A DNA stretch of 64,000 nucleotides, taken from positions 182,859-246,858 of IMG/VR virus record IMGVR_UViG_3300047558_000137. The stretch is one strand, 5' to 3'. Source of the stretch: a virus. The position numbers and the translations under genes are program-made. Under the pieces are notes generated by a model. It searched no databases, was not told where the DNA came from, and saw nothing but the letters and a program-made list of their open reading frames with translations. How positions within the stretch are numbered: the first letter of the stretch is position 1; the number at the start of each line of letters is the position of its first letter. Below are positions 6,807-57,664 of this stretch, one piece after another.

Positions 6807-7022
6807 TCAGTCAAACTTTGCTAACTGTGTGTAGTAGTCGGGGCGCTCTTTAAGATGATCTAGAGCGATTTCACGGGCGGTTGCTGTGTTTTTTGTATGC
6901 TCATGTTCCACGGAGATACCTTTAGCTAACTGTTGTTTAATATATTCAACAGATACACTGTGTCGCTTGGCCAACTGCTCAGGGGACAGTGTGGGTTTAT
7001 CAAGTATCTCGTGTGCTCTCAT
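6807..7022 (-). CDS. DUF5661-like small protein
   Basis: A 71-residue protein with LAKRHSVSVEYIKQQLAKGI, then EHEHTK, then AREIALDHLKERPDYYTQL. This is the pattern of the DUF5661 family, frequent in phage structural neighbourhoods; function unknown. The ATG overlaps the preceding stop by one base. Confidence 0.8.
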   Translation of the reverse strand: MRAHEILDKPTLSPEQLAKRHSVSVEYIKQQLAKGISVEHEHTKNTATAREIALDHLKERPDYYTQLAKFD

Positions 7023-8290
7023 TAGTGTTCTAGCAAGTATGTGCCAATAACGTCACGACTGTTGGCACTTGTGTCGGGGAATCCAGGACGAACAATAACG
7101 TTCCACTTTGGTGTTTCTGGATCGTGCTGTTCATCAGGCAAATCTGTCCATTCGTCATAGTCAAGAATGCTTTCAACAGGAACATTGTAGGCTTGAGCTA
7201 TGCGATTTTTTAGTTCTTCTAAAGCACCTTCTTTGTAACCCCAGATCTTATCCTTACCCTTAAGATCAAACGGATCTGGTATACGTTCTAATAGGCCTTT
7301 AAACATTTCACGTGGAACAATTTGGCTGTGTTTGACACGTTTACCAGTCTGCTGTTGGTGAATCTTAATTACTTTACGCTGTTCGCCCTTAGCGCCTTCA
7401 CTCCAGTTAGGATCAAAGTTTGGTGGCAAATCGGCAGTAATAGTGTTGGCCATTTTGCTGTAGCAATAGAACTTAACTTCAGGAAAACGTTTGGCAATAC
7501 GTATGGCCATTTGCAAGTAGGCATCACTAAAGAAGTCGCCGGCATCATGCCACCGAACGTTAACTTGTATCTTCTGACGCTTGTAGGCTAGATACTGTCC
7601 TTGTATTTCGTGACTTAGTTGTTCCTCAAACCCCTGTGGATCATTTAGCAAGAAGTTTAAGTTCTGACTCATTGTTTTCCATGGGCCATCAAACACAATG
7701 TAAAAGCCGCCTTTAACATAGCAGTTCTGTTGGCAAGAGCCTGCACCCGGGCAAGTGTTTACATAGACAAACTTATTTGTTTCTTCGTCTACTGCCAGCC
7801 CTTTTAATGCAGGCAATGAAGTGTTAAAGTAAACACCAGATTTTTGCATCTTGCTGTTCTGTGCTAGGATAGATTTAGGTCTAGTTTTAATAATAGCCTT
7901 CATTGCTTCAACATCAATGGTTTTACCATCGGCCATAAACTTAATGCTACTGGCATGAATGTAAGGCTTTGTGTAATAGTCAGTGGTCTTTTCTTTTTCA
8001 CTACGTGTTTCTGGAGCATCTGGGCCCCATGTTTGTAATGTCTGTTGACTCTGTTGCTGAGTCTTGCTAGTCTTTTTCTCAGCATCTCTACGCAGTGCAT
8101 CAGCTTTAATACGACCTAGATAGTCGGCCATTTCTTCATCAGGTACTTCAGTGTGTGGTGCGTCTAGACCGATTGCTTCATCTACTTCAGCGTCGGGCTG
8201 TTGACCTTTAAACAATGCACTCAGTGGCTTTACTTCTACGCCAGGTAGTTTGATGCTTTCGTATAATTTGTTAAATTCTTTGTATCTCAT
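7022..8290 (-). CDS. GP88-family protein (radical-SAM-like barrel)
   Basis: A 422-residue protein. From about residue 140 it matches phage 'gene product 88' proteins: FNTSLPAL, a cysteine cluster CPGAGSCQQNCY near residue 184, VRWHDAGDFFSDAY near 246 and KFYCYSKMAN near 273. The cysteines could bind an iron-sulfur cluster and the following strand order resembles a radical-SAM-type barrel, but the activity is unknown. The first 130 residues are a charged, low-complexity extension with DUF5661-like neighbours. Coupled to 6807-7022. Confidence 0.75.
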   Translation of the reverse strand: MRYKEFNKLYESIKLPGVEVKPLSALFKGQQPDAEVDEAIGLDAPHTEVPDEEMADYLGRIKADALRRDAEKKTSKTQQQSQQTLQTWGPDAPETRSEKEKTTDYYTKPYIHASSIKFMADGKTIDVEAMKAIIKTRPKSILAQNSKMQKSGVYFNTSLPALKGLAVDEETNKFVYVNTCPGAGSCQQNCYVKGGFYIVFDGPWKTMSQNLNFLLNDPQGFEEQLSHEIQGQYLAYKRQKIQVNVRWHDAGDFFSDAYLQMAIRIAKRFPEVKFYCYSKMANTITADLPPNFDPNWSEGAKGEQRKVIKIHQQQTGKRVKHSQIVPREMFKGLLERIPDPFDLKGKDKIWGYKEGALEELKNRIAQAYNVPVESILDYDEWTDLPDEQHDPETPKWNVIVRPGFPDTSANSRDVIGTYLLEH

Positions 8291-18901: not shown

Positions 18902-18934
18902 TTTCAACTCCTGGTTGTTTGTTGCTATGTCTAA

Positions 18935-19000: not shown

Positions 19001-19165
19001 TCAATCAATTTGTACGTCAGCAATCTTCCCGTTACGGAAAATGTAATACGAATTTACTAATCCGTAGCTAACCCAAATGCAGTTGTTACCCGCTTGCATA
19101 CTGTAGTTTTCAATGCCACGTTTACGCAGATCTTCAATGACCAGCATCTGCTCAAACTCATTCAT
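19001..19165 (-). CDS. 54-residue phage protein
   Basis: Begins MNEFEQMLVIEDLRKRG and ends YYIFRNGKIADVQID. It overlaps the MNER-family gene upstream by eight bases, and its stop abuts the palindrome of the promoter of the next operon. Small alpha/beta protein; function unknown. Confidence 0.55.
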   Translation of the reverse strand: MNEFEQMLVIEDLRKRGIENYSMQAGNNCIWVSYGLVNSYYIFRNGKIADVQID

Positions 19166-19364
19166 TTTTACCCCAAATAAATTCTTCTAAGTCGTAGAGG
19201 ACTTCTGCTTTACTGTTTCCACTTTTAGAAACGATTGTCATACATTCTTTGACGAGCAACTCGGCGAACTTTTCTTTGTCAAAGATCCAACCTTCACCGC
19301 TTGTTGATGTTGGCTCAATGTAAGTCGTAGCCTGTTCAGCAAGTTGTTTAATTCGTTCGTTCAT
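19158..19364 (-). CDS. MNER-family small protein
   Basis: 68 residues: MNERIKQLAEQA start and the core KEKFAELLVKECM near residues 28-40. The C-terminus (GKNE) lacks the HFGVEE ending. No signal or membrane segment; helical. One of 13 family members in this window. Overlaps the next gene by four bases. Function unknown. Confidence 0.78.
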   Translation of the reverse strand: MNERIKQLAEQATTYIEPTSTSGEGWIFDKEKFAELLVKECMTIVSKSGNSKAEVLYDLEEFIWGKNE

Positions 19365-19561: not shown

Positions 19562-19755
19562 TCTTCATCACTCCTTAACGGCACGGTATAACTGCTGGCA
19601 CCATGAATCTTCATCATGTGTTGGGCCAAAAGCACAGCATTTTCTCGGTTTGTGGCAAACACAGGATAAAAACTAATACTGGCTTGATACTCACCATTGG
19701 GTTTTTCTCCCAACTGAGTGAAACTCAAATTCACCACAAACTCTTTGGCTTTCAT
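19558..19755 (-). CDS. small phage protein, beta-rich
   Basis: A 65-residue protein with FVVNLSFTQLGEKPNGEYQASISFYPVFATNRENAVLLAQHM, resembling the short protein at 55760-55939 in layout (beta strands, then a helix with 'A..LA'). The ribosome site is GGAGTTGAAGA, the string that also ends MNER-family genes. Confidence 0.62.
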   Translation of the reverse strand: MKAKEFVVNLSFTQLGEKPNGEYQASISFYPVFATNRENAVLLAQHMMKIHGASSYTVPLRSDEE

Positions 19756-19766
19756 TCTTCAACTCC

Positions 19767-20042
19767 TTATTGAAATTGCCGACGGCTACGACCGATTTCA
19801 TCACACTTGGCAACAAACTTTGGATTCAATTCAAATGGTTTATTGATTGGATCGGTGTTCATCATACGCTTGAGTTCATCAGCATTAGCAAGAATCAACT
19901 CAGCGAACTTTTTAAGTTCATCTTCGATAAAATCTTCAGCCCAAAAGTATTCGTGACCGTTTTGGTAATTACCAACCGTGTAGATAGCACCATTGGTTTC
20001 AAACCCAGCCCGTAGAGCAAGTTCTTTTAATCGTTCATTCAT
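19767..20042 (-). CDS. MNER-family small protein
   Basis: 91 residues: MNERLKELALRAGF start and core LKKFAELILANADE near residues 43-56, with a divergent tail (CDEIGRSRRQFQ). It is preceded by GGAGTTGAAGA, formed by the last codons of the upstream member. Function unknown. Confidence 0.75.
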   Translation of the reverse strand: MNERLKELALRAGFETNGAIYTVGNYQNGHEYFWAEDFIEDELKKFAELILANADELKRMMNTDPINKPFELNPKFVAKCDEIGRSRRQFQ

Positions 20043-20278
20043 TCTTCAACTCCAAAATGTTCTTTAATATTGTCTGAGCAGGCCTTAGTGACTATTGCTA
20101 CCCTAATTGGATAGATTCCGAATCTTTCAACATCTTTGTGTTTATAACAAGCATCGGCACATTCCCGAACAATTAACTCAGCAAATTTTTCAACATCGCT
20201 GTCATCTGAAAAATGCCACTCTCCATTATCGTAACGGAATCCTGTCTGTTCAGCAAGTTGTTTAATTCGTTCGTTCAC
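20039..20278 (-). CDS. MNER-family small protein (GTG start)
   Basis: 79 residues: MNERIKQLAEQTGF start, core VEKFAELIVRECAD at about 30-43, ending IKEHFGVEE. The start codon is GTG, overlapping the upstream stop as GTGA. The end GGAGTTGAAGAATGA codes GVEE-stop and at the same time gives the ribosome site and start of the next gene. Confidence 0.8.
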   Translation of the reverse strand: MNERIKQLAEQTGFRYDNGEWHFSDDSDVEKFAELIVRECADACYKHKDVERFGIYPIRVAIVTKACSDNIKEHFGVEE

Positions 20279-20499
20279 GGCACCCTCACAAAATCAACAT
20301 TTTCAACTGCGTCAGTTTTGAACACTCTACCCAGGATGCGACTACCAACCGTACCACTCTTACTCAAGTAGTAATCATTGTTTGGCATCAACGAACCGTA
20401 GATAGTGCCGCCCACTTTTACTCCACTACCAGGAATCTTTTTCAATAGCTTTGCTTTGAAAACAACAAGTAAATTAGGATTACTATTATGGATAATCAT
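20275..20499 (-). CDS. small phage protein inserted in the MNER array
   Basis: 74 residues, beta-rich (VFKAKLLKKIPGSGVKVGGTIYGSLM...). No family relation to its neighbours. It uses the GGAGTTGAAGA site at the end of the upstream gene. Function unknown. Confidence 0.62.
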   Translation of the reverse strand: MIIHNSNPNLLVVFKAKLLKKIPGSGVKVGGTIYGSLMPNNDYYLSKSGTVGSRILGRVFKTDAVENVDFVRVP

Positions 20500-20720
20500 T
20501 CTTCAACTCCGAAATGTTCTTTGTATCGGTTTAGCATCCGTTCAAACGCATTGAACGCTAACTCTTGTCGATTCAATTCAATGCATTCCTTTACAATCAA
20601 CTCGGCGTGCTTGACAGAAACAATGGCATAGTAAATGTCATTGTATCGGAGTGCTGGTGGCACTTTGCTATCAGCATATTCCAACGCTTGAGTGTATAGT
20701 TCTCCAATTCGTTCATTCAT
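20496..20720 (-). CDS. MNER-family small protein
   Basis: 74 residues: MNERIGELYTQALEYADS start, core VKHAELIVKECIEL, ending NRYKEHFGVEE. Same overlap join as its neighbours. Function unknown. Confidence 0.78.
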   Translation of the reverse strand: MNERIGELYTQALEYADSKVPPALRYNDIYYAIVSVKHAELIVKECIELNRQELAFNAFERMLNRYKEHFGVEE

Positions 20721-20945
20721 TCTTCAACTCCGAAATGTTCTTGCCACATACGCTTGGGTTCGCTGATTATTGGTTGCTTTGCCATGAAACCATTCAGATT
20801 CTACCATTGCATCCAACACCATTCGTTCCATCAACTCTACATACTTTTCTGCGTATGCTTGACTATACGGCATTGCTGTAGTTTCGTTTTGCTTGACAGC
20901 ATAGATACGAGCCTGTTGCTCAAGTTCTTGAATTCGTTCGTTCAT
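20717..20945 (-). pseudogene. MNER-family member with a frameshifted C-terminus
   Basis: The frame from 20945 gives MNERIQELEQQARIY and core AEKYVELMERMV, then runs to a stop at 20724 with the odd tail VARTFRS. In the +1 frame the same bases read EPKRMWQEHFGVEE and stop at 20717, the family ending with the usual overlap onto the next ATG. So one indel lies near 20755-20775. The protein may still be made (73 residues) with a changed tail; a sequencing error is also possible. Confidence 0.65.
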
Positions 20946-22461: not shown

Positions 22462-22494
22462 TTATAACTCCTGGTTGTTTGTTGCTATGTCATT

Positions 22495-34266: not shown

Positions 34267-36741
34267 TTAGTTTCCTAATTTATATTGGCTATCAACCATT
34301 TCTTGCCATTTTGCATCGCTGGCGCCGGACAGTCTTCGCTGGGCATTGCGATTATCGACGGTAGGTTTGTGATACTGGCGTGCTACTGCGTTCGCTAAAG
34401 TATCTGGTACGATTGAATTTTGATATGCCGAGAATCCTGGCACGTACCCCATTAGGCCTACTACTAAACCTTGTGTTGCAGCCTGTGCTTCCATTGTGGT
34501 TGCGTTGGCACTTGCTGCTGCTGCATCTTTGGCGGCTGCTGCCGCATTACCACGGGCGGCTGCTTTGGCCACTGCACCTTCTGTTTTCTTTGCATCTGCT
34601 TTTGCTTCTGCACTAGGTTGTGGTGCAGGTGCAGGTGTTGTGGCTGCTGCGGTAGCTGCTGTGGTTGCACTGTTACTAGGAGGGTTAATTACACTAGTTA
34701 CACTTGTTGGACTGGTTGTACTTGTGGTAGTAGGTGTACTCACCGCCGAACTTACCACAGGATCACTGATTGCCACTGCGGCAGGATTGCTTATTACTGT
34801 AGCAGGAGATTCTGTAGTTATTGTTACAACCGATGTAGTTGTTGTCTTTGGTGTAGACAATATGTTCTTGGCTGCGTATGCTGTCGCATAGTTAGGACAT
34901 GTTCTGTCATACAGTCCGTTTAGTTGACACTGTTGACTAAAATAAGCCTGTTGGTAGTTAGGGCAACTAGTTGAATATAGTTGGCTAATGTTACATTGTT
35001 GTGTTAAGTATGCTGCCTGATATCCTGGGCAGTCACTCATATACAATGGATTGGCTGTACATTGCTGTGTATGATATGCTTGTGCGTACCCAACACAGTC
35101 TGTTGCGTACAACGGATTAATACTGCACTGCTGATTCTTATAGGCCACTGCATAACCAGGGCATTGGTTACTGTATAATGGATTGGCTGTACATTGCTGA
35201 CTAAAGTATGCTTGCTGGTATCCCGGACAATCACTCATATACAAAGCACTGATACTGCATTGCTGGTCATGATAGGCAACCGCATATCCAGTACATTGAT
35301 TACTGTACAATGGACTAATGTTACATTGTTGTGTTAGGTAGGCCTGTGCATATCCAGTACAGTCACTCATATACAAAGGATTAAGACTGCATTGTTGATT
35401 ATGGTAAGCTGTTGCATAACCGGGACATTGATTACTATATAACGCACTAGCGGCACATTGTTGATTAAAATAGGCCAGCTGGTATCCGGGACAGGTTGTA
35501 TCACTTAGTGGATTGTTTGTGCATTGTTGTGTAAATAATGCCTGTGCATATCCAGGACAACTTTGACTATATAGCTGATTGGCTGTACATTGCTGTGTTA
35601 GATAGGCAGACTGATATCCTGGGCAGTCACTTGCCCATAGTGGATTAATGTTACATTGTTGGTCATGATATGCCTGTTGGTACCCTGGACAGCTAGTACT
35701 ACTCAATGGATTAACAGTACAAGGATCTGGTGTGTATTCAAAGTTACTCCAGACATTGTCAATACTTGCTACGCCAGTGGTTGATACAGAAAAACTCACA
35801 CTACCCAACGTTGATAGGTTGCGACTTGCAGGAAATAGATAACGATAACTAGGCGAACCAGATATGTTCTGTCCAGTGTGAGTATGACTATTTGAATACA
35901 ACGAATTATTGGCACTATCAGTTAGTCCAACATTTAATGTAACGCTACTATTAGTCCACCCCCAGCATCCTAAGAACTGCCAACCAGAACAATATTGTCC
36001 TCCCACACTGTAATCATATCCATAATTAAATGCGTGGATCATTACATTGGCGCCACTAAGACCCAATGCTTGATTAATAGCATAACTCTGTCCAACAACA
36101 TTACTTAAAATGTTACTGCTAGTCTGTACGGTGCTATAATTTGGGCAAGTTGGACTATATGCAGGATTAGTAACACAAGGATCAACTCTGTAGTTCAAAC
36201 TCATGCCTACATTACGAACTTCTGGCCCAAAGTATCCAGCCCAAAATCCGCTGTCCTTACTGTTAAAGGATATACTTAAATTCCCTACGCCACTTAGGTT
36301 AGCCGGATTGGTTAATGTTTGTGTACCAGTAAATGTAGTCCAATCAAACTTTGTATTGTGTGTCGTGGTGTTAGTTAATAGGGTAGCGCCAGTGTTACTA
36401 GTCATCTTAGTAACCACAGTCATAGTGTCCACACTGCCTTGTCTGTTATCGCCGTTCATGTTACGCAGATCGTAGGTATAGTTATACCCATCTACCTGTA
36501 CGCCAGACCCGCTTAATGCGTTATTAATTGCTGTAGTCTTAGAGGCAGTGGCTTGATTATAACTCCAGTTAACTGTGCCGGTTGCAGTATCGTAAAGTAG
36601 AACAGAACCTGGCATACGATTAGCAGGTAAAGTGCCGTTGGTTACTCCGGTCCAGTTTGTCCCACTTAATACGTTGCTAGTTGTGTCTGCGTTAACTGCT
36701 GAAACAACTAGTGCCAGAATCAGCGCAATTAGTTGTTTCAT
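34267..36741 (-). CDS. large secreted protein with 13 cysteine repeats
   Basis: 824 residues with a signal peptide (KQLIALILALVVSAVNA). Two related beta-rich domains of about 150 residues follow, each ending DPC-(V/T)NP...C-x-x-Y. From about residue 345 to 625 there are thirteen 22-residue repeats of the form CPGYxxAYxxQQCxxNPLYxxx (two cysteines each), then a Thr/Ser/Ala-rich low-complexity part and a C-terminal domain. An extended, disulfide-stabilised surface rod or adhesin is likely. It is followed upstream by a second exported protein (36738-37223). Confidence 0.75.
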   Translation of the reverse strand: MKQLIALILALVVSAVNADTTSNVLSGTNWTGVTNGTLPANRMPGSVLLYDTATGTVNWSYNQATASKTTAINNALSGSGVQVDGYNYTYDLRNMNGDNRQGSVDTMTVVTKMTSNTGATLLTNTTTHNTKFDWTTFTGTQTLTNPANLSGVGNLSISFNSKDSGFWAGYFGPEVRNVGMSLNYRVDPCVTNPAYSPTCPNYSTVQTSSNILSNVVGQSYAINQALGLSGANVMIHAFNYGYDYSVGGQYCSGWQFLGCWGWTNSSVTLNVGLTDSANNSLYSNSHTHTGQNISGSPSYRYLFPASRNLSTLGSVSFSVSTTGVASIDNVWSNFEYTPDPCTVNPLSSTSCPGYQQAYHDQQCNINPLWASDCPGYQSAYLTQQCTANQLYSQSCPGYAQALFTQQCTNNPLSDTTCPGYQLAYFNQQCAASALYSNQCPGYATAYHNQQCSLNPLYMSDCTGYAQAYLTQQCNISPLYSNQCTGYAVAYHDQQCSISALYMSDCPGYQQAYFSQQCTANPLYSNQCPGYAVAYKNQQCSINPLYATDCVGYAQAYHTQQCTANPLYMSDCPGYQAAYLTQQCNISQLYSTSCPNYQQAYFSQQCQLNGLYDRTCPNYATAYAAKNILSTPKTTTTSVVTITTESPATVISNPAAVAISDPVVSSAVSTPTTTSTTSPTSVTSVINPPSNSATTAATAAATTPAPAPQPSAEAKADAKKTEGAVAKAAARGNAAAAAKDAAAASANATTMEAQAATQGLVVGLMGYVPGFSAYQNSIVPDTLANAVARQYHKPTVDNRNAQRRLSGASDAKWQEMVDSQYKLGN
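34880..35735 (-). repeat. 66-bp tandem coding repeats (13 units)
   Basis: In-frame repeats of 22 codons inside the 824-residue gene. Units are diverged at DNA level, with alternating loops (NQ, SD, TT before the Cys), which suggests old duplications of two-unit blocks rather than recent slippage. Confidence 0.85.
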
Positions 36742-47519: not shown

Positions 47520-48539
47520 TTATAGTGTTTTGGCTAGCTCATACAGTGCATGACTTGCAAGGTTCTTGCCCTTACTTTCGCACATGATATCAAAATTGTC
47601 CCTAAATGTCAATGCCCACTCGTTTACTGCGCGATTCCAGTAAAAGTCCGAATGTGCCCGCAGTTTTTGTTTTTTGTAACCTTCTACAAGCAATGCTGAG
47701 TAGCTGGGCAACGTGTCTGGGCAGTGGCCGACGAGGTAGTCTTCTCGGGAGACGGAATAATGTAAAGTAGGACGCACACCCCGCCAACTGTCAATAACTT
47801 TTGCAACACGATCGCTACCAACATCAATGTATTCCCCTTCTCGGGTCCAGTGATGATGTATATCGAGCACAATAGGTACAAGATCACACAACTCCAAACA
47901 AGTATCAAGCCCATGTGCATTCTCCTCGTTTTCAATAGTTAAGCAGTTACGAGCTTCAGGTGATAGACGCTGCCACGCACTTCTAATACCCATCGGCCCC
48001 CTCTTGCCCGAGATGTGGACATTGATCTTAAAATCCTGAAATTCTCTGCCGTATCCCATCCAGCGGGCCATATCTGCATGATACTCAAACTCCTCTATAC
48101 TGCGTTCTACGATAGCGTCGGATTCACTAGCAAGAACTGTAAACTGGCCAGGATGAAAACTAAGGCGCACTCCACGGGCGCGAGCCAAAGCACCAATCTC
48201 AGCAAAGCCTTTTTCGCAAAAGGACTCAACCGCTGTGTCATTGTAAAATGAACCAAAAGTAGGTTCAGTATAGACAGGCAAGATATCACTACTAAGGCGT
48301 ACCATACGAAGGGGTGCATCTAGTTCTCCAACTCGTTCAACGAGCTTGCGTGTGGACTCAATGTTTTGCTTGACAAGGTCCCACAGTTTCTGTTCAGCTA
48401 CATCAGCAGTCTGGCGCTTGAGCCAGGCTACAGTAGTGCCGCCGGTGTTGTATTGTTTTGCATCGTCGTTGGGACCTATACCATCAACTTGATCAGGGCG
48501 GTCAATCCATTTGCAAGCAAAGCCAATACGTTTGTTCAT
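47520..48539 (-). CDS. uvsE: UV DNA damage endonuclease
   Basis: 339 residues from ATG at 48539. UVDE family: RIGFACKW at the N-terminus, MVRLSSDILPVY, LSFHPGQFTVLAS, YHADMARWMG, then ENEENAHGLDTCLELCDLVPIVLDIHHHW with the metal ligands of the TIM barrel. It nicks 5' of pyrimidine dimers and 6-4 products. Rare in phages compared with denV. Its -10 box ends six bases before the ATG. Confidence 0.92.
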   Translation of the reverse strand: MNKRIGFACKWIDRPDQVDGIGPNDDAKQYNTGGTTVAWLKRQTADVAEQKLWDLVKQNIESTRKLVERVGELDAPLRMVRLSSDILPVYTEPTFGSFYNDTAVESFCEKGFAEIGALARARGVRLSFHPGQFTVLASESDAIVERSIEEFEYHADMARWMGYGREFQDFKINVHISGKRGPMGIRSAWQRLSPEARNCLTIENEENAHGLDTCLELCDLVPIVLDIHHHWTREGEYIDVGSDRVAKVIDSWRGVRPTLHYSVSREDYLVGHCPDTLPSYSALLVEGYKKQKLRAHSDFYWNRAVNEWALTFRDNFDIMCESKGKNLASHALYELAKTL

Positions 48540-48545
48540 AGTCAT

Positions 48546-48551
48546 ATTATA
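48546..48551 (-). promoter_or_regulatory. -10 promoter, probably leaderless
   Basis: TGTTATAAT on the minus strand ends six bases before the uvsE ATG at 48539, as at 1183 and 16551. Confidence 0.55.
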
Positions 48552-48563
48552 ACACACTTTACA

Positions 48564-48950
48564 TTAAGCAATCCAGCCCTGTCCGGATATATCATGATAC
48601 CAAGTATAAAAGTTAGCAGGAATACTAAAAGTCCATGGATCCAATGTATCAATGTAACACTTTTTATTACTTGATAAGTGCTGATATTTTGGTAACACCT
48701 CTAGCCCATTCACTGTTAATCCAATATCTAATCCGCTTGTGCCTTCTTTAAACTCTATTAGATTAACATCCAGTTTAACAGGATCAAATAGATCTAATGT
48801 AAATGTAATTTTATCTACATTGATAATAAATCCGTTGAGCTTTACGAAACTATCCGTCTGGCCATAACGAGTTATTAATAGATCAACTACTAATTTTTGG
48901 TGTGTGTCAATAGCCGAGAGATCTGAGAAAGTCTTTATATCTTGGTACAT
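48564..48950 (-). CDS. unrecognised 128-residue protein linked to a radical SAM gene
   Basis: 128 residues: YQDIKTFSDLSAIDTHQKLVVDLLITRYGQ, beta-rich middle, ending FYTWYHDISGQGWIA. It starts 44 bases inside the end of the radical SAM gene, so it is translated from the same mRNA and may be the substrate or partner. Function unknown. Confidence 0.68.
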   Translation of the reverse strand: MYQDIKTFSDLSAIDTHQKLVVDLLITRYGQTDSFVKLNGFIINVDKITFTLDLFDPVKLDVNLIEFKEGTSGLDIGLTVNGLEVLPKYQHLSSNKKCYIDTLDPWTFSIPANFYTWYHDISGQGWIA

Positions 48951-50205
48951 AATCTAAAATGGAATTCTTTCGTAGTGTTTCAAATCCCTTAAGGAATCTT
49001 ATTAACTGACTTCTGTGTTGGTCTGCATCCTCGGGGACACTGTAGTTCTGCATAAAATTATAGTAGTCTATAATGGTGTCTGCAATTACCTGATTAATTC
49101 GGCTGTTATTGCGTAGGTTCAATTGTCCAGTGTGAACAAGTCCATGGCGTAGAATCACCGAAGCTATCTTATCGACAACTTCCTGTCTGATATCATCGGG
49201 CATAATCTCAATACGCAGGCAGGCTGGATCACTTAGTATATCGCAACTTTCAGCAATGACATTTTTCTCTATCATATATTCAAACAGTTGATCTAGTTCG
49301 TATGCTGTAAAAATATTAGGTGTAATACGGAGAGAAATGTATAACCCACTTTGCTTTCGCAATTCAAGAAAGCTATCAATGTTGGCAAGTATGTCCCCAA
49401 TCTTCCCGGGATACCTAACATAGTCATTTAAGTCTGTAACCGATTCAATGCTAATGCCCATATGAAATTCTTTAAACTGTTTAATTAACTGTTCAACACG
49501 TTCGTTGTAAATTGTACCGTTGGTTGTTGTACCAACAATAATTTCTTTGCTTAATCCTGCATCTATTAATGCCTGACATATATCATAGAAAGCTGAATCA
49601 AATAGCGTTTCGCCACCAAGGAAATGTATGTACTTAACTGGAATTGTTTTTAGCTCTGAGACAAATTGATCCACTGCATCCCGAGTCCAACTGTGATATC
49701 GGTCGGGCTGTTTAAAAGTCTGGCTGTCAATTTGATGTAGCTTAACGTAGTCTTGTTCTAATCTACTGCTGGCGATGGGGTCACACATGATACAGGCGCT
49801 GTTACAAACATTGCCCAAATCAATTTGTAGATCAACTGGGTGCATGTCAGCTAAGCCACTATTATTTTGGCTGTGTTGAAAATGGCTGTAGTGCGGACTG
49901 CTTAGAGTCTGCAATTCAAATTGATCAGTTATTCCGCTTTTTAATAACTGTCTGCGGCGGCCGCTTAGTTTGCCAAATTGATCTTGGTAATAACAGTTTG
50001 CACAACCTGCGGGCTGTTGCCCTTCTAAAAATTGACTGCGTAGACTACGCATACGATCACTGTTATAAAACTCCATAACAGATGCGGTGCGTATATTCAT
50101 AGGAGAACTGCCCCGATCTTTAAACCAGCGGCATTCTTGAAAGTCCCCGTTGTAGGTTAATCTAACGTGGAACCATGGACTAGAACAAAAAGTATTTTTT
50201 AACAT
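48907..50205 (-). CDS. radical SAM protein (SPASM/twitch-like)
   Basis: 432 residues. N-terminal FCSSPWFHVRLTYNGDFQECRW and CANCYYQD look like extra iron-sulfur ligands; the main motif is GNVCNSACIMCDP (CxxxCxxC) near residue 133, then IHFLGGETL (GGE) and TTTNGTI. Family members modify peptides or cofactors. In T4-like phages they are common, substrate unknown. Overlaps a small protein that may be its substrate. Confidence 0.83.
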   Translation of the reverse strand: MLKNTFCSSPWFHVRLTYNGDFQECRWFKDRGSSPMNIRTASVMEFYNSDRMRSLRSQFLEGQQPAGCANCYYQDQFGKLSGRRRQLLKSGITDQFELQTLSSPHYSHFQHSQNNSGLADMHPVDLQIDLGNVCNSACIMCDPIASSRLEQDYVKLHQIDSQTFKQPDRYHSWTRDAVDQFVSELKTIPVKYIHFLGGETLFDSAFYDICQALIDAGLSKEIIVGTTTNGTIYNERVEQLIKQFKEFHMGISIESVTDLNDYVRYPGKIGDILANIDSFLELRKQSGLYISLRITPNIFTAYELDQLFEYMIEKNVIAESCDILSDPACLRIEIMPDDIRQEVVDKIASVILRHGLVHTGQLNLRNNSRINQVIADTIIDYYNFMQNYSVPEDADQHRSQLIRFLKGFETLRKNSILDYVPRYKDFLRSLGY

Positions 50206-53164: not shown

Positions 53165-53452
53165 TTATCGCCATTCATTTGCACGGTCGATTTCTTCTTG
53201 CGTAAACTGACCACCTGAACGGTCAGGGTTCTGTGCCCAACTATCTTGTGTGGCTTTTTCGCAACACACTTCCACATCCTGCAAGATACGCTTGAGTTCG
53301 TCAATGTTAACCGCAAGGAAAGAAACTGTAGCATACAATGCCGCATCCTCGGCCATAGTACCAAGACAAAGGACCTTTCGGTGTGCTTCCAACAATTTTT
53401 CCTTGCCGGCAATTGTGTTTTTCAGATTATCTCTTACTGTATGGATGTTCAT
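53165..53452 (-). CDS. small phage protein
   Basis: 95 residues: NIHTVRDNLKNTIAGKEKLLEAHRKVL, two long helices, ending FTQEEIDRANEWR. Chosen over an out-of-frame reading (to 53412) because it has ATG, GGAGTTGAAGA ahead and an overlap join with 53449-53622. Confidence 0.68.
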   Translation of the reverse strand: MNIHTVRDNLKNTIAGKEKLLEAHRKVLCLGTMAEDAALYATVSFLAVNIDELKRILQDVEVCCEKATQDSWAQNPDRSGGQFTQEEIDRANEWR

Positions 53453-53622
53453 TCTTCAACTCCAATATAAACTGCACGGCGATTCTTGTCGCTGACTTCG
53501 CTAAACCACGCAACAAAATCATCGGCCCCTTGTTTAGTATCAAACTTTTCTTCGTGATGAACTTTGTATTCTTGAGAATCCCAACGCTTGTGAATTCTGA
53601 CTTCAACGATATGTTGTTTCAT
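53449..53622 (-). CDS. 57-residue phage protein with GVEE ending
   Basis: Begins MKQHIVEVRIHKRWDSQEYK and ends RRAVYIGVEE. The core has no MNER family pattern, but the last codons GGAGTTGAAGAATGA are the shared sequence that also makes the next ribosome site. Beta then helix. Function unknown. Confidence 0.6.
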   Translation of the reverse strand: MKQHIVEVRIHKRWDSQEYKVHHEEKFDTKQGADDFVAWFSEVSDKNRRAVYIGVEE

Positions 53623-53852
53623 TCTTCAACTCCGAAATGTGCTTTCAAATCATTAGCAATAGCAAATGCTATGATCCACTTTGTATCTTCGCCGCGTTCA
53701 TATTTGTAATCACGCTCGATTTTGGCGGAACATTCCTTGACAATCAACTCGGCGAATCTTTGGGTATATGCTTTGTGGAATTCATCGCCTCGGTGGTCAG
53801 CAACAACATCATCTTCGGCCTGTTCAGCAAGTTCTTTAATTCGTTCGTTCAT
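53619..53852 (-). CDS. MNER-family small protein
   Basis: 77 residues: MNERIKELAEQAEDDVV start, core QRFAELIVKECSAKIE near residues 30-46, ending DLKAHFGVEE. Full-length, typical member. Overlaps both neighbours as ATGA. Confidence 0.82.
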   Translation of the reverse strand: MNERIKELAEQAEDDVVADHRGDEFHKAYTQRFAELIVKECSAKIERDYKYERGEDTKWIIAFAIANDLKAHFGVEE

Positions 53853-54037
53853 TCTTCAACTCCCAAGTGATTAACGATTGCCCGAGCATTATTGTAATCA
53901 ACTACATCGCAACATTCCTTGATTATCAATTCAGCGAACTTTTCTGAATACGCAATCAGCCCTTGTTCGTGGGGCAAATCTTGGTTGCGGTATTGTGCCC
54001 TGGCTTGATTCATAAGTATTGCTATTCGTTCGTTCAT
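53849..54037 (-). CDS. MNER-family small protein
   Basis: 62 residues: MNERIAILMNQARAQY start, core EKFAELIIKECCDVV near 32-46, ending IVNHLGVEE. Typical member with one change (HL for HF). Confidence 0.8.
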   Translation of the reverse strand: MNERIAILMNQARAQYRNQDLPHEQGLIAYSEKFAELIIKECCDVVDYNNARAIVNHLGVEE

Positions 54038-54231
54038 TTTTCATCATCCTGCAGTTTGGTTGCCAGTGCTTGACGAATTTGGTCAAACATTGACGCATTA
54101 TGATTTAAGGCACTGGCAAATTTGTCTTTGATTTCAGCATCAAATAACTCGGTAGGATTACCCGTCTTGTCTGCTGTAATACGCTGTTCGGCAAGTTTTG
54201 CCAGTTCGTTAAGTTTATCGTTTAATGTCAT
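54034..54231 (-). CDS. distant MNER-like small protein
   Basis: 65 residues: MTLNDKLNELAKLAEQRI start, core KDKFASALNHNASM, ending KLQDDEK. The helix pattern is like the family but most family residues are lost. Its stop overlaps the start of 53849-54037. Confidence 0.55.
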   Translation of the reverse strand: MTLNDKLNELAKLAEQRITADKTGNPTELFDAEIKDKFASALNHNASMFDQIRQALATKLQDDEK

Positions 54232-54455
54232 TCTTCAACTCCAAAATGTTGTTTAACTGCGTCAAGGGCAGAGGTCGGATTCATATGTCCACGCTGTGAT
54301 TTTACAATCACCTTCCATGTTTCCATAGCAACCAACTCGGCGAACTTTACTCGCCACTCATCTTGCCATTGCGTAAGCAGTAGAATTCTTTCTGTGGGAA
54401 GTTCATCTGCCCATCGTTTAGCCTCTACCATCAGTTCTTTAATTCGTTCGTTCAT
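54228..54455 (-). CDS. MNER-family small protein
   Basis: 75 residues from ATG at 54455, chosen to match the family start MNERIKELM; the longer frame adds 9 residues. Core RVKFAELVAMETWKV near 38-52, ending VKQHFGVEE. Overlaps the gene upstream by 17 bases. Confidence 0.78.
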   Translation of the reverse strand: MNERIKELMVEAKRWADELPTERILLLTQWQDEWRVKFAELVAMETWKVIVKSQRGHMNPTSALDAVKQHFGVEE

Positions 54456-54669
54456 AGTCCAACTCCACTTCTCGTTCAACATAGGTTTTTGTTGCCATCT
54501 TTAACACAACTGCGGCACTATGGCGCCACATATCTTCACGCATACCCAGATAACTTAACCCAAGTGCCTTAAAAGCATTGTCAAGTCCATCGTAGTCAAG
54601 TGTTGGTGCCGCAAGATGAAACTCTTTGGCACGATGCTTAAACTCTTCCCAGGAACACGCTAATGTCAT
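54439..54669 (-). CDS. small phage protein in the MNER array
   Basis: 76 residues: CSWEEFKHRAKEFHLAAPTLDYDGLDNAFKALGLSYLG, helical; not related to the MNER family. It uses the GGAGTTGAAGA site of 54666-54842. Confidence 0.6.
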   Translation of the reverse strand: MTLACSWEEFKHRAKEFHLAAPTLDYDGLDNAFKALGLSYLGMREDMWRHSAAVVLKMATKTYVEREVELDYERTN

Positions 54670-54842
54670 TCTTCAACTCCAACGAGTTCTAAAGTCCATC
54701 CAACGGGAGGTTCTTCGTTTCGTTTTTCATATCTCTTATTCATTGTGTCACACGCTTTTAGTCTCGCTTGTTCCTCATTGATAGCACGAACGGTGACGGT
54801 TGCCGTTTTCCAGTAAGCATATTTGAAGGTATATTTGTTCAT
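54666..54842 (-). CDS. 58-residue phage protein with GVEE ending
   Basis: Begins MNKYTFKYAYWKTATVTVRA, continues INEEQARLKACDTMNKRYEK, ends LELVGVEE. A beta strand-helix layout like 53449-53622 and 55042-55251. The stop and next start share GAAGAATGA. Function unknown. Confidence 0.6.
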   Translation of the reverse strand: MNKYTFKYAYWKTATVTVRAINEEQARLKACDTMNKRYEKRNEEPPVGWTLELVGVEE

Positions 54843-55045
54843 TCTTCAACTCCGAAATGTTTTGCAATTCTTTCACCGGCATCGTCACTGTAGTTACGGT
54901 TGGTAAAGTTTGTACCCAATGTGGCACATTCCCGAACAATCAACTCGGCGAACTTTTCTTTATTAAAAATCTTTTGCGGAGGTGCATAGTTGTATTCCGC
55001 AAGGTCGTAAGATTCTTCAATTAGTTCTTTAATTCGTTCGTTCAT
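54839..55045 (-). CDS. MNER-family small protein
   Basis: 68 residues: MNERIKELIEESYDLAEY start, core KEKFAELIVRECATLG near 30-45, ending RIAKHFGVEE. Typical member. Confidence 0.82.
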   Translation of the reverse strand: MNERIKELIEESYDLAEYNYAPPQKIFNKEKFAELIVRECATLGTNFTNRNYSDDAGERIAKHFGVEE

Positions 55046-55251
55046 ACCAGTTCTCCTGTAGCATCGTTGACACAGCCTCGGTAGACTGCCTTGAAAAATG
55101 ATTTTGTGGGTGGTCGTTTATTATCAAACCATTCAATGTAAGCAGATGCCTCTTCTTTGGTTGAGTATTTGGTTGCAAATGTAACATCGGTCAAGTTAAT
55201 CTTACCGTTCTCTACGGGGTGGACTTGGACGATGTGAAAGTATTTGTTCAT
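55042..55251 (-). CDS. small phage protein in the MNER array
   Basis: 69 residues: MNKYFHIVQVHPVENGKINLTDVTFATKYSTKEEASAYIEWF. Strand-strand-helix layout shared with 54666-54842. Function unknown. Confidence 0.6.
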   Translation of the reverse strand: MNKYFHIVQVHPVENGKINLTDVTFATKYSTKEEASAYIEWFDNKRPPTKSFFKAVYRGCVNDATGELV

Positions 55252-55415
55252 TCTTCAACTCCTTGAACCATTAGGTCCATTTCTTTTGCCAAATCTTCCA
55301 TTAGATGGCGACCTTGTAGTTTCGAACCAATAAAACGGTTGTCGTAGTAGTCACTGTTCTGGCGCTCACGCTCGTCTAAGTATTCTTCTAAAACTTCTGA
55401 AAATTTACGACTCAT
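55248..55415 (-). CDS. 55-residue conserved phage protein
   Basis: Begins MSRKFSEVLEEYLDERERQN, has SDYYDNRFIGSKLQGR and LMEDLAKEMDLM, ends VQGVEE. A widespread tiny phage family ('FSEVLEEYLDER-NS-YYD-RF'), here with the array's GVEE end added on. Function unknown. Confidence 0.68.
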   Translation of the reverse strand: MSRKFSEVLEEYLDERERQNSDYYDNRFIGSKLQGRHLMEDLAKEMDLMVQGVEE

Positions 55416-55657
55416 TCTTCAACTCCGAAATATGTTTTCGTATTAAGACGAATCTTTTCAATCAGTTCAGCAGACTTCTTATCGTTGTTACCGATACAAT
55501 CTAACTGTTGCAACAGTAGAATGTCATCAAACTTCTTCACAATCAACTCGGCGAACTTTTCATCAAAATACGCTTGCCTCTGTACATCATTAAACCCAAT
55601 TCTTTGATTTACGGTACACCGTGCCTGATTGGCAAGTTCCCTGATTCGTTTGTTCAT
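55412..55657 (-). CDS. MNER-family small protein
   Basis: 81 residues from ATG at 55657 (MNKRIRELANQARCTV); the longer frame to 55714 is not needed. Core DEKFAELIVKKFDDILL near 35-51, ending KTYFGVEE. First member of the 53-55.7 kb array. Confidence 0.78.
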   Translation of the reverse strand: MNKRIRELANQARCTVNQRIGFNDVQRQAYFDEKFAELIVKKFDDILLLQQLDCIGNNDKKSAELIEKIRLNTKTYFGVEE

Positions 55658-57088: not shown

Positions 57089-57664
57089 TTAGGCATCAGC
57101 ATAAAATATATGTCCGCCAATTCTTTCCACAAAACGCTTTTGATGTGCCCAACTGGGTTTAATTCTACGTTCATGAAAATACATGGCGTCATAGTATTTA
57201 ACCCTGAGATCCTCGTAACCACCTGACATTAGTTCAGATGCTACTTGTAGGCTTTCTGCCCATCTCCAGTCGTTTTTAACCAATTTGTTAGATTCACATT
57301 TCCAACTAAATTGGCAGATAGTACGCTTGGACCACACAGTTACTTTTTCTGTAACTTGACGTGTAGTTTTAAAAACTGTTCCTTCTGTAACAACTTGTGT
57401 TTTTGTTACTTGAGTAGGTACACTTCTTACTGTGCGTTGATTCACTACACCACATATAGTGTCAGGAAATCTACCACTGTTGCTTCTGTTAATAGTAACA
57501 AGGCCAACTGCAACTTTGCCTTCTATTGATTCACCGCCTGCCTCGTGATAAATGTTACGAGCCAAACAGTCGAGGTCTGATTGCTTGCCGACCTCTTTCG
57601 CATGACCGGGTGCCAATACGGTCAGGGCGATTATTGATATAATGATTTGCATCATTTTTTTCAT
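57089..57664 (-). CDS. SleB-type cell wall hydrolase (endolysin candidate)
   Basis: 191 residues with signal peptide (MQIIISIIALTVLAPGHA). Hydrolase_2/SleB domain: LDCLARNIYHEAGGESIEGKVAVGLVTINR (catalytic Glu in HEAGGE), ICGVVNQ, then CQFSWKCE after a Thr/Val-rich insert, and YDAMYFHE. It cuts glycan strands of peptidoglycan. The export signal suggests a SAR-like or Sec endolysin. GAAGGAGG precedes the ATG. Confidence 0.9.
   Translation of the reverse strand: MKKMMQIIISIIALTVLAPGHAKEVGKQSDLDCLARNIYHEAGGESIEGKVAVGLVTINRSNSGRFPDTICGVVNQRTVRSVPTQVTKTQVVTEGTVFKTTRQVTEKVTVWSKRTICQFSWKCESNKLVKNDWRWAESLQVASELMSGGYEDLRVKYYDAMYFHERRIKPSWAHQKRFVERIGGHIFYADA

Follow-up and report, generated by a model that had tools for sequence, protein, structure and literature searches.

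Codon-frozen boundary blocks and reassorted half-genes in arrays of small overlapping phage genes

The 64,000-nt window analyzed here (positions 182,859 to 246,858 of the IMG/VR virus record IMGVR_UViG_3300047558_000137) carries minus-strand arrays of small phage genes that overlap their neighbors at ATGA and are joined by a recurrent 15-base junction, GGAGTTGAAGAATGA. They contain members of one paralogous family (family genes) and captured, non-family genes (Table 1). A single stretch of GGAGTTGAAGAATGA is the Shine-Dalgarno (SD) sequence and start codon of one gene and also the GVEE-stop of the gene before it. Eight exact copies lie between 53449 and 55426, and a second cluster at 19.7 to 20.7 kb has four more, at 19752, 20039, 20496, and 20717. 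The whole record (374,314 bp) has 17 exact copies, all on the minus strand and in three clusters, 5 of them outside both clusters of the window. Allowing up to 3 mismatches, the window holds 17 matches, whereas shuffled sequence gave 1.9 on average (at most 6). Every other GGAG..ATG leader occurs at most twice in the phage, and the leaders of other starts vary, so GGAGTTGAAGAATGA is not its general ribosome site. The motif directly before the ATG, GGAGTTGAAGA, is highly conserved, has the position of a ribosome site, and stands ahead of unrelated genes. At 19752 the 15 bases sit after a TAA and are untranslated, and the gene upstream of the 20717 copy translates them in a different frame (..ARTFRS-stop).

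An initial annotation, made from the letters alone, held that the genes from 53449 to 55657 are joined by the same bases. This describes the eight exact junctions well, but the starts at 54037 (GATGATGAAAAATG), 54455 (GGAGTTGGACTATG), and 55045 (GGAGAACTGGTATG) deviate, and the gene starting at 55657 has no junction before it. Its double reading of the junction, as GVEE-stop and as SD, spacer, and next ATG, is borne out by the right SD spacing and stop-start overlap. The array cluster at 181 to 183 kb of the record extends into the window with a further family gene (500-868, MNEQIKKLAEQAF..) that reads GGAGTTGAAAAATGA in another frame (..ISELKND). An identical 23-nt leader, ACATAGCAACAAACAACCAGGAG, with TATAAT- or TATACT-like boxes ahead, stands on the minus strand at 18908-18930 and 22468-22490, so that its two copies flank the second array cluster, and probably serves as promoter-leader for this array and for the next gene.

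Table 1. Genes and exact junctions of the arrays (window positions; V1 and V2 are the variable segments of family genes)
Feature	Position	Strand	Details	Basis
Gene behind last exact junction of cluster	53165..53452	-	95 aa, MNIHTVRDN..	
Captured non-family gene	53449..53622	-	57 aa, ..YIGVEE	
Family gene	53619..53852	-	77 aa, HFGVEE end; V1 53763-53816, middle block 53733-53762, V2 53643-53732	
Family gene	53849..54037	-	62 aa, HLGVEE end; V1 53945-54001, V2 53873-53914	
Divergent small gene	54034..54231	-	65 aa, MTLNDKLNEL.., DDEK end; non-canonical junction to next gene	
Family gene	54228..54455	-	75 aa, HFGVEE end; V1 54351-54419, V2 54252-54320	
Non-family gene	54439..54669	-	76 aa, degenerate junction GGAGTTGGACTATGA read in other frame (..ELDYERTN)	
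Captured non-family gene	54666..54842	-	58 aa, ..ELVGVEE	
Family gene	54839..55045	-	68 aa, AlphaFold2 model; V1 54959-55009, middle block 54929-54958, V2 54863-54928	
Non-family gene	55042..55251	-	69 aa, ..CVNDATGELV	
Captured non-family gene	55248..55415	-	55 aa, ..MVQGVEE	
First family gene of cluster	55412..55657	-	81 aa; V1 55562-55621, V2 55433-55531	
Family gene	19158..19364	-	First 108 nt shared with L360 gene	
Family gene	20039..20278	-	79 aa, HFGVEE; exact junction 20039-20053	
Captured gene	20275..20499	-	MIIHNSNPNL..	
Family gene	20496..20720	-	V2 in common with L129 gene	
Family gene	20724..20945	-	Reads junction 20717-20731 in other frame (..ARTFRS)	
Exact junction GGAGTTGAAGAATGA	53449..53463	-		Sequence match
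Exact junction	53619..53633	-		Sequence match
Exact junction	53849..53863	-		Sequence match
Exact junction	54228..54242	-		Sequence match
Exact junction	54666..54680	-		Sequence match
Exact junction	54839..54853	-		Sequence match
Exact junction	55248..55262	-		Sequence match
Exact junction	55412..55426	-		Sequence match
Exact junction	19752..19766	-	Untranslated, after TAA stop	Sequence match

The main paralogous family follows the pattern MNERIKEL..KFAELIVREC..HFGVEE, and each of its genes has frozen codons in three blocks, at the start, in the FAELIVREC middle, and at the HFGVEE end with the ribosome-binding site, with the variable segments V1 and V2 lying between them. The comparison of the blocks with the interiors of the same genes revealed biased codons in all three: in the ending, Gly is GGA in 99% of the cases (27% in the interiors) and Val is GTT in 94% (40%); in the start block, AACGAACGAATT, Arg is CGA in 93% (19%) and Asn AAC in 94% (34%); in the middle block, TTCGCCGAGTTGATT, Glu is GAG in 92% (25%) and Ala GCC in 85% (22%). 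Freezing is most extreme in the ending, where GGA and GAA are the most frozen codons of all, and it also covers the CAT of His, the CGA of Arg 4, and the FAELI codons, none of which belongs to an SD. The initial annotation had proposed comparing synonymous with coding change at the GVEE codons; their bias is indeed strong, but the FAELI control has frozen codons too, and because all conserved blocks are frozen the test is only partial evidence for an SD constraint. One could still hold that the ribosome site alone is constrained, GGAGTTGAAGAATGA being kept as a good SD and start, GVEE being its translation, and the arrays arising by tandem duplication. The correct SD spacing, the TGA overlapping the next ATG in 244 of 246 GVEE members (protein-anchored sample), and the extreme freezing of GGA and GAA agree with this. 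Nevertheless, the SD leaders of other phage genes vary, the codons just listed are frozen outside any SD, and duplication alone cannot give identical V1 segments with unrelated V2 segments, as described below. We regard this account as very improbable; as full explanations, its two components were rejected, tandem duplication by the unlinking of V1 and V2 and SD selection by the frozen non-SD codons of the start and middle blocks.

The GVEE ending itself was claimed to follow the junction and not the fold, since the unrelated proteins of 53449, 54666, and 55248 all share it. They do end in GVEE, and BLASTP gave no alignment for those of 53449 and 54666. The 53449 gene is weakly related (27% identity, E = 1e-4, in a single comparison) to window gene 55042-55251, which ends ..RGCVNDATGELV at a different junction, and homologs of 55248-55415 end in MVQGVEE (L023; loci of the comparison are given by L numbers) or MVQGIKE. 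Among captured genes outside the family that have the junction, 51 end in GVEE and 8 in another frame; their homologs without it have GVEE in 9 of 113 cases and other endings in 104, the same gene families being counted from several queries. The gene MxKYPSY.CQNCGELIGWLGRIMPFHKC runs into one and the same junction sequence at both L211 and L070, in frame 0 at the former and frame 2 at the latter. Since homologs off the junction end differently and other frames are read, the ending of captured genes follows the junction.

This extends only partly to the main family, in which the HFGV[E/K] tail is native. GVEE ends 246 of 466 members (a sample of FAELIV-anchored members and motif-selected loci), 240 of them coded GGAGTTGAAGAA, and most other endings are variants (e.g., HFGVE, GVKE, and GVEL) that likewise prepare the next start. 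The tail is also kept where no gene follows, an observation the initial annotation had named as contrary to its claim: L300 ends HFGVEE-TAA, and L023 and L178 end HFGVE-TAA. These few members indicate that HFGVE(E) belongs to the family. Among 355 distinct junctions, 276 come after a family gene in the GVEE frame, 11 after a family gene in another frame, and 68 after no recognizable family gene. The captured junction genes of L211, L062, and L111, which by eye we take to be an HD-domain enzyme, a DnaQ-like exonuclease, and a rhodanese, suggest that the arrays can take in larger enzymes.

Related contigs often part at these junctions. In inter-contig alignments of at least 85% identity, 90% of the exact-junction starts encountered were breakpoints (198 broken, 23 spanned), against 52 to 58% at other starts (other SD starts were broken in 75 of 144 encounters). 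Alignment ends pile up there; for example, 46 of 171 alignment starts fell at −20 to +9, against 2.5% at random. Where V1 was shared and the previous gene was not, identity mostly ended at −1 or −2 of the ATG. We found no block with exact junctions on both sides in both contigs; relaxing the boundary to any gene start gave 31 gene-sized blocks with different neighbors, up to 97% identical. The captured gene 20275-20499 has a second copy in the same record (72% nucleotide identity) and an 88% relative in L287, where the neighbors differ, and bases closely similar to the 55042-55251 region stand before a different V1 in L360. The proposal that small genes are exchangeable modules carrying their translation signal along is upheld by the 198 of 221 broken starts and the 31 blocks. 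What it missed is that two more blocks are frozen besides the junction and that the exchanged unit is often half a gene.

The half-genes were compared across the family, with data that come mostly from metagenome contigs. Clustering at 75% of 650 distinct members gave 472 V1 types and 479 V2 types in 634 combinations: 85 of the 92 repeated V1 types had two or more V2 partners, and 99 of the 107 repeated V2 types had two or more V1 partners. Chao1 gives rough estimates of about 1,800 V1 and 1,500 V2 types. In 661 distinct members, 200 pairs share V1 (≥85%), 158 share V2, and only 14 share both, while V1 is common to genes with unrelated V2 in 158 pairs and V2 to genes with unrelated V1 in 123; since related contigs recur among them, these pairs are not independent observations. 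Identity broke off within the middle block: it was lost +11 to +35 nt after the F codon in 72 of 73 V1-sharing pairs, and its boundary was −11 to −1 nt before this codon in all 65 V2-sharing pairs. The other end was unrelated in 59 to 67% of family pairs, against 6% of control pairs of small genes of similar size from the same contigs.

The window gives its own examples. Gene 19158-19364 and the L360 gene are identical over 108 of 108 nt from the ATG, and the remainder (V2) and the upstream bases are unrelated; a search with this V1, blind to V2, found 34 stretches, and the V1 occurs at 35 loci with about 24 to 25 V2 types (26 V2 clusters were listed, a few from unparsed or cut genes). Gene 20496-20720 and the L129 gene, in the same record, are 88% alike in V2 and 43% in V1 at the nucleotide level. 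A scan of IMG/VR for one window V2 gave no match. The V2 of L412 also occurs in L442, with a different V1.

Nearly all the data being metagenome contigs and the joins lying at repeats, blocks of 20 to 40 nt might have led assemblers to fuse unrelated phages into false V1-V2 pairs. Yet identical combinations recur in separately numbered metagenomes, three for L413/L419/L433, four for L418/L432/L441/L443, and two for L417/L421; the blocks are shorter than usual read lengths; and the window's own record has two genes with a common V2 and different V1. Most assemblies would have to be wrong, because most V1 types seen twice have different partners, and such an artifact strikes us as extremely unlikely.

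Crossovers may also be random and illegitimate, with selection sparing only those that preserve frames and translation signals, so that boundaries seem targeted. Phage mosaicism has two standing models, of which this is one (PMC3233612), and it accords with the frequent breakpoints at ordinary gene starts of the same regions (52 to 58%) and with the occurrence of frames 0, 1, and 2 into the junction. It leaves unexplained the freezing of synonymous sites in the start and middle blocks, breakpoints confined to a mid-gene stretch of some 45 nt in genes about 75 codons long, and the tenfold excess over control small genes, and we consider it unlikely.

A 22-mer extending into the start of the following family gene was present in at least 119 IMG/VR contig stretches, and a 21-mer, CATTTYGGAGTTGAAGAATGA, was seen in GTDB contigs of metagenome-assembled genomes (MAGs; L407 to L412) binned as Rhodoferax, Bacteroidetes, an actinobacterium, Planctomycetia, and others, some of which look like phage contigs within bins. 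The label freshwater for these large phages comes from a few sources (e.g., MAG titles and Manatee Spring records) and general knowledge, not from a survey. With Pfam and PHROGs profiles, no family was matched by more than one of 89 members at E = 0.01, and 50,697 records of isolate phages gave no clear member; a match in a Barba phage was discarded, as it has a similar GGAGGTGAAGAATGA overlap in a gene without the look of the family. A looser relative, L406 (MW202520.1; MNDRIKELAEQAGFD..RFAELVRQDERKSCANILDAF..), is alike at the start and middle, lacks the HFGVEE end, and suggests a wider family. The AlphaFold2 model of the 54839-55045 product is helix-strand-strand-helix-helix, with a mean predicted local distance difference test (pLDDT) score of 87.9. 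On this model V1 is the hairpin, the middle block is the core helix, and V2 is the end of the core helix, a loop, and the last helix. Foldseek found no significant match in the PDB (best E = 0.87); its best matches in BFVD were uncharacterized proteins of uncultured phages (E of about 1e-3). Neither the profiles nor the fold comparisons pointed to a function.

The blocks, the reassortment across them, and the positions of the breakpoints, as established by comparing sequences, are in our view quite probably best explained by homology-guided recombination at short boundary blocks, which shuffles both genes and half-genes. The arrays would be operon-like sets of small overlapping genes built for exchange. 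One fixed block, roughly CATTTCGGAGTTGAAGAATGAACGAACGAATTAAAG, comprises the end of one gene, the ribosome site, and the start of the next, and a second, GAAAAGTTCGCCGAGTTGATT..GAATGT (EKFAELI..EC), lies in the middle of every family gene. The pieces exchanged between them would be V1 (a predicted beta-hairpin), V2, and entire unrelated genes. Co-infecting phages, or paralogs, may recombine homologously with the short identical blocks as crossover points, and products would stay in frame and translatable because stop, SD, start, and core helix all lie within the blocks. Its agent is probably a phage RecA-like recombinase: the 374-kb record has a RecA-family gene. It gave no match to Rad52. We infer from these patterns the recombination pathway, the reason for the freezing of the blocks, the coupling of translation, and any role in host conflict.

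A dedicated site-specific system (integron-, shufflon-, or DGR-like, the last for diversity-generating retroelement) could likewise move segments held in cassette-like arrays of one orientation with fixed short sites. However, the record has no match to Phage_integrase (PF00589, tyrosine recombinase; 14 of 14 control genomes were positive, and the record is possibly incomplete), Resolvase (PF00239), or reverse transcriptase (PF00078). As single-stranded DNA the blocks fold no better than shuffles (z = 0.36 and 0.86), with no stable hairpin; they have two different sequences, within which identity breaks off at scattered positions and not at a single base. We give such a system hardly any credence.

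Several points count against homology-guided exchange at the blocks. The evidence is wholly comparative and mostly from metagenome assemblies, with no recombination event seen directly, and the pair counts lack independence. The absence of an integrase is weak evidence, since the record may be incomplete, and the RecA-family match designates a putative recombinase only. Recent expansion of the family with strong constraint on a few residues also fits the codon freezing. The chances seem evenly balanced that the family is kept as scaffold arrays supplied from two pools of segments circulating among phages, one of V1 and one of V2, each at least several hundred strong, with the frozen blocks serving at once as protein core, translation signal, and recombination site. 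If exchange at the blocks is correct, these phages have a common stock of protein parts that can replace one another, a combinatorial repertoire.

Elsewhere in the window, 34267-36741 encodes an 824-aa protein with many QQCxxNPLYxxxCPGYxxAY-type repeats and without a Pfam match. Pfam matches were found for a GP88-like protein (7022-8290), the UV-endonuclease UvdE (47520-48557), and, phage-encoded as well, a radical SAM/SPASM protein (48907-50205) and a cell wall hydrolase (57089-57664).

Parts of the arrays resemble known systems, although we found no description in the literature of a repertoire of interchangeable parts for a small phage protein family. The start-associated sequences (SAS) and their extended forms (ESAS) of Cluster K mycobacteriophages and Cluster EF Microbacterium phages include a conserved, repeated 13-bp motif at the ribosome-site position before some starts of unrelated gene families (PMC3203893, PMC7302621). 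A conserved short motif directly before the starts of unrelated genes also occurs here, but the SAS consensus, GGGATAGGAGCCC / GGGAAAGGACCCC, differs from GGAGTTGAAGA. An upstream extended element accompanies about half of the Cluster K SAS genes (17-bp inverted repeats) and all Cluster EF sites, and the portions of these papers used here do not describe SAS as a coded C terminus or as a half-gene crossover point. Domain mosaicism, in which recent recombination leaves phage proteins with one near-identical part and another wholly different (Smug et al. 2023, PMC10684548), likewise involves a near-identical fragment common to otherwise unrelated proteins. There, it concerns domains of larger proteins (e.g., receptor-binding proteins, endolysins, and polymerases), whereas here two variable segments of about 10 to 40 codons are exchanged, the genes are only about 75 codons long and stand in multicopy arrays, and every boundary is marked by frozen DNA.

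Unlike integron cassette arrays, ours showed neither a tyrosine-recombinase integrase nor a foldable attC-like site in a record that may be incomplete, and the lack of matches to reverse transcriptase and to site-specific recombinases in it sets them apart from diversity-generating retroelements and shufflons, respectively. PeSL, an intergenic early promoter with a stem-loop, is also a short element repeated between small genes. Arbiol et al. in 2010 reportedly presented PeSLs as mobile regulatory cassettes of T4-type phages that, according to the title of that paper, mediate modular shuffling. The arrays differ in that their genes overlap (ATGA) and no stable hairpin is predicted.

The closest parallel in mechanism is the old boundary-sequence model, in which homologous recombination is aimed at short conserved intergenic sequences and which is debated against random crossovers filtered by selection (PMC3233612). 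Many crossovers fall within short conserved sequences here too, on comparative evidence, and one boundary block also lies inside the gene. With so many crossovers in defined blocks of 20 to 40 nt, at about a tenfold contrast to controls, the mosaicism question becomes directly testable in these arrays. What is new is the near-complete unlinking of two half-genes, the internal block, and the scale of the exchange.

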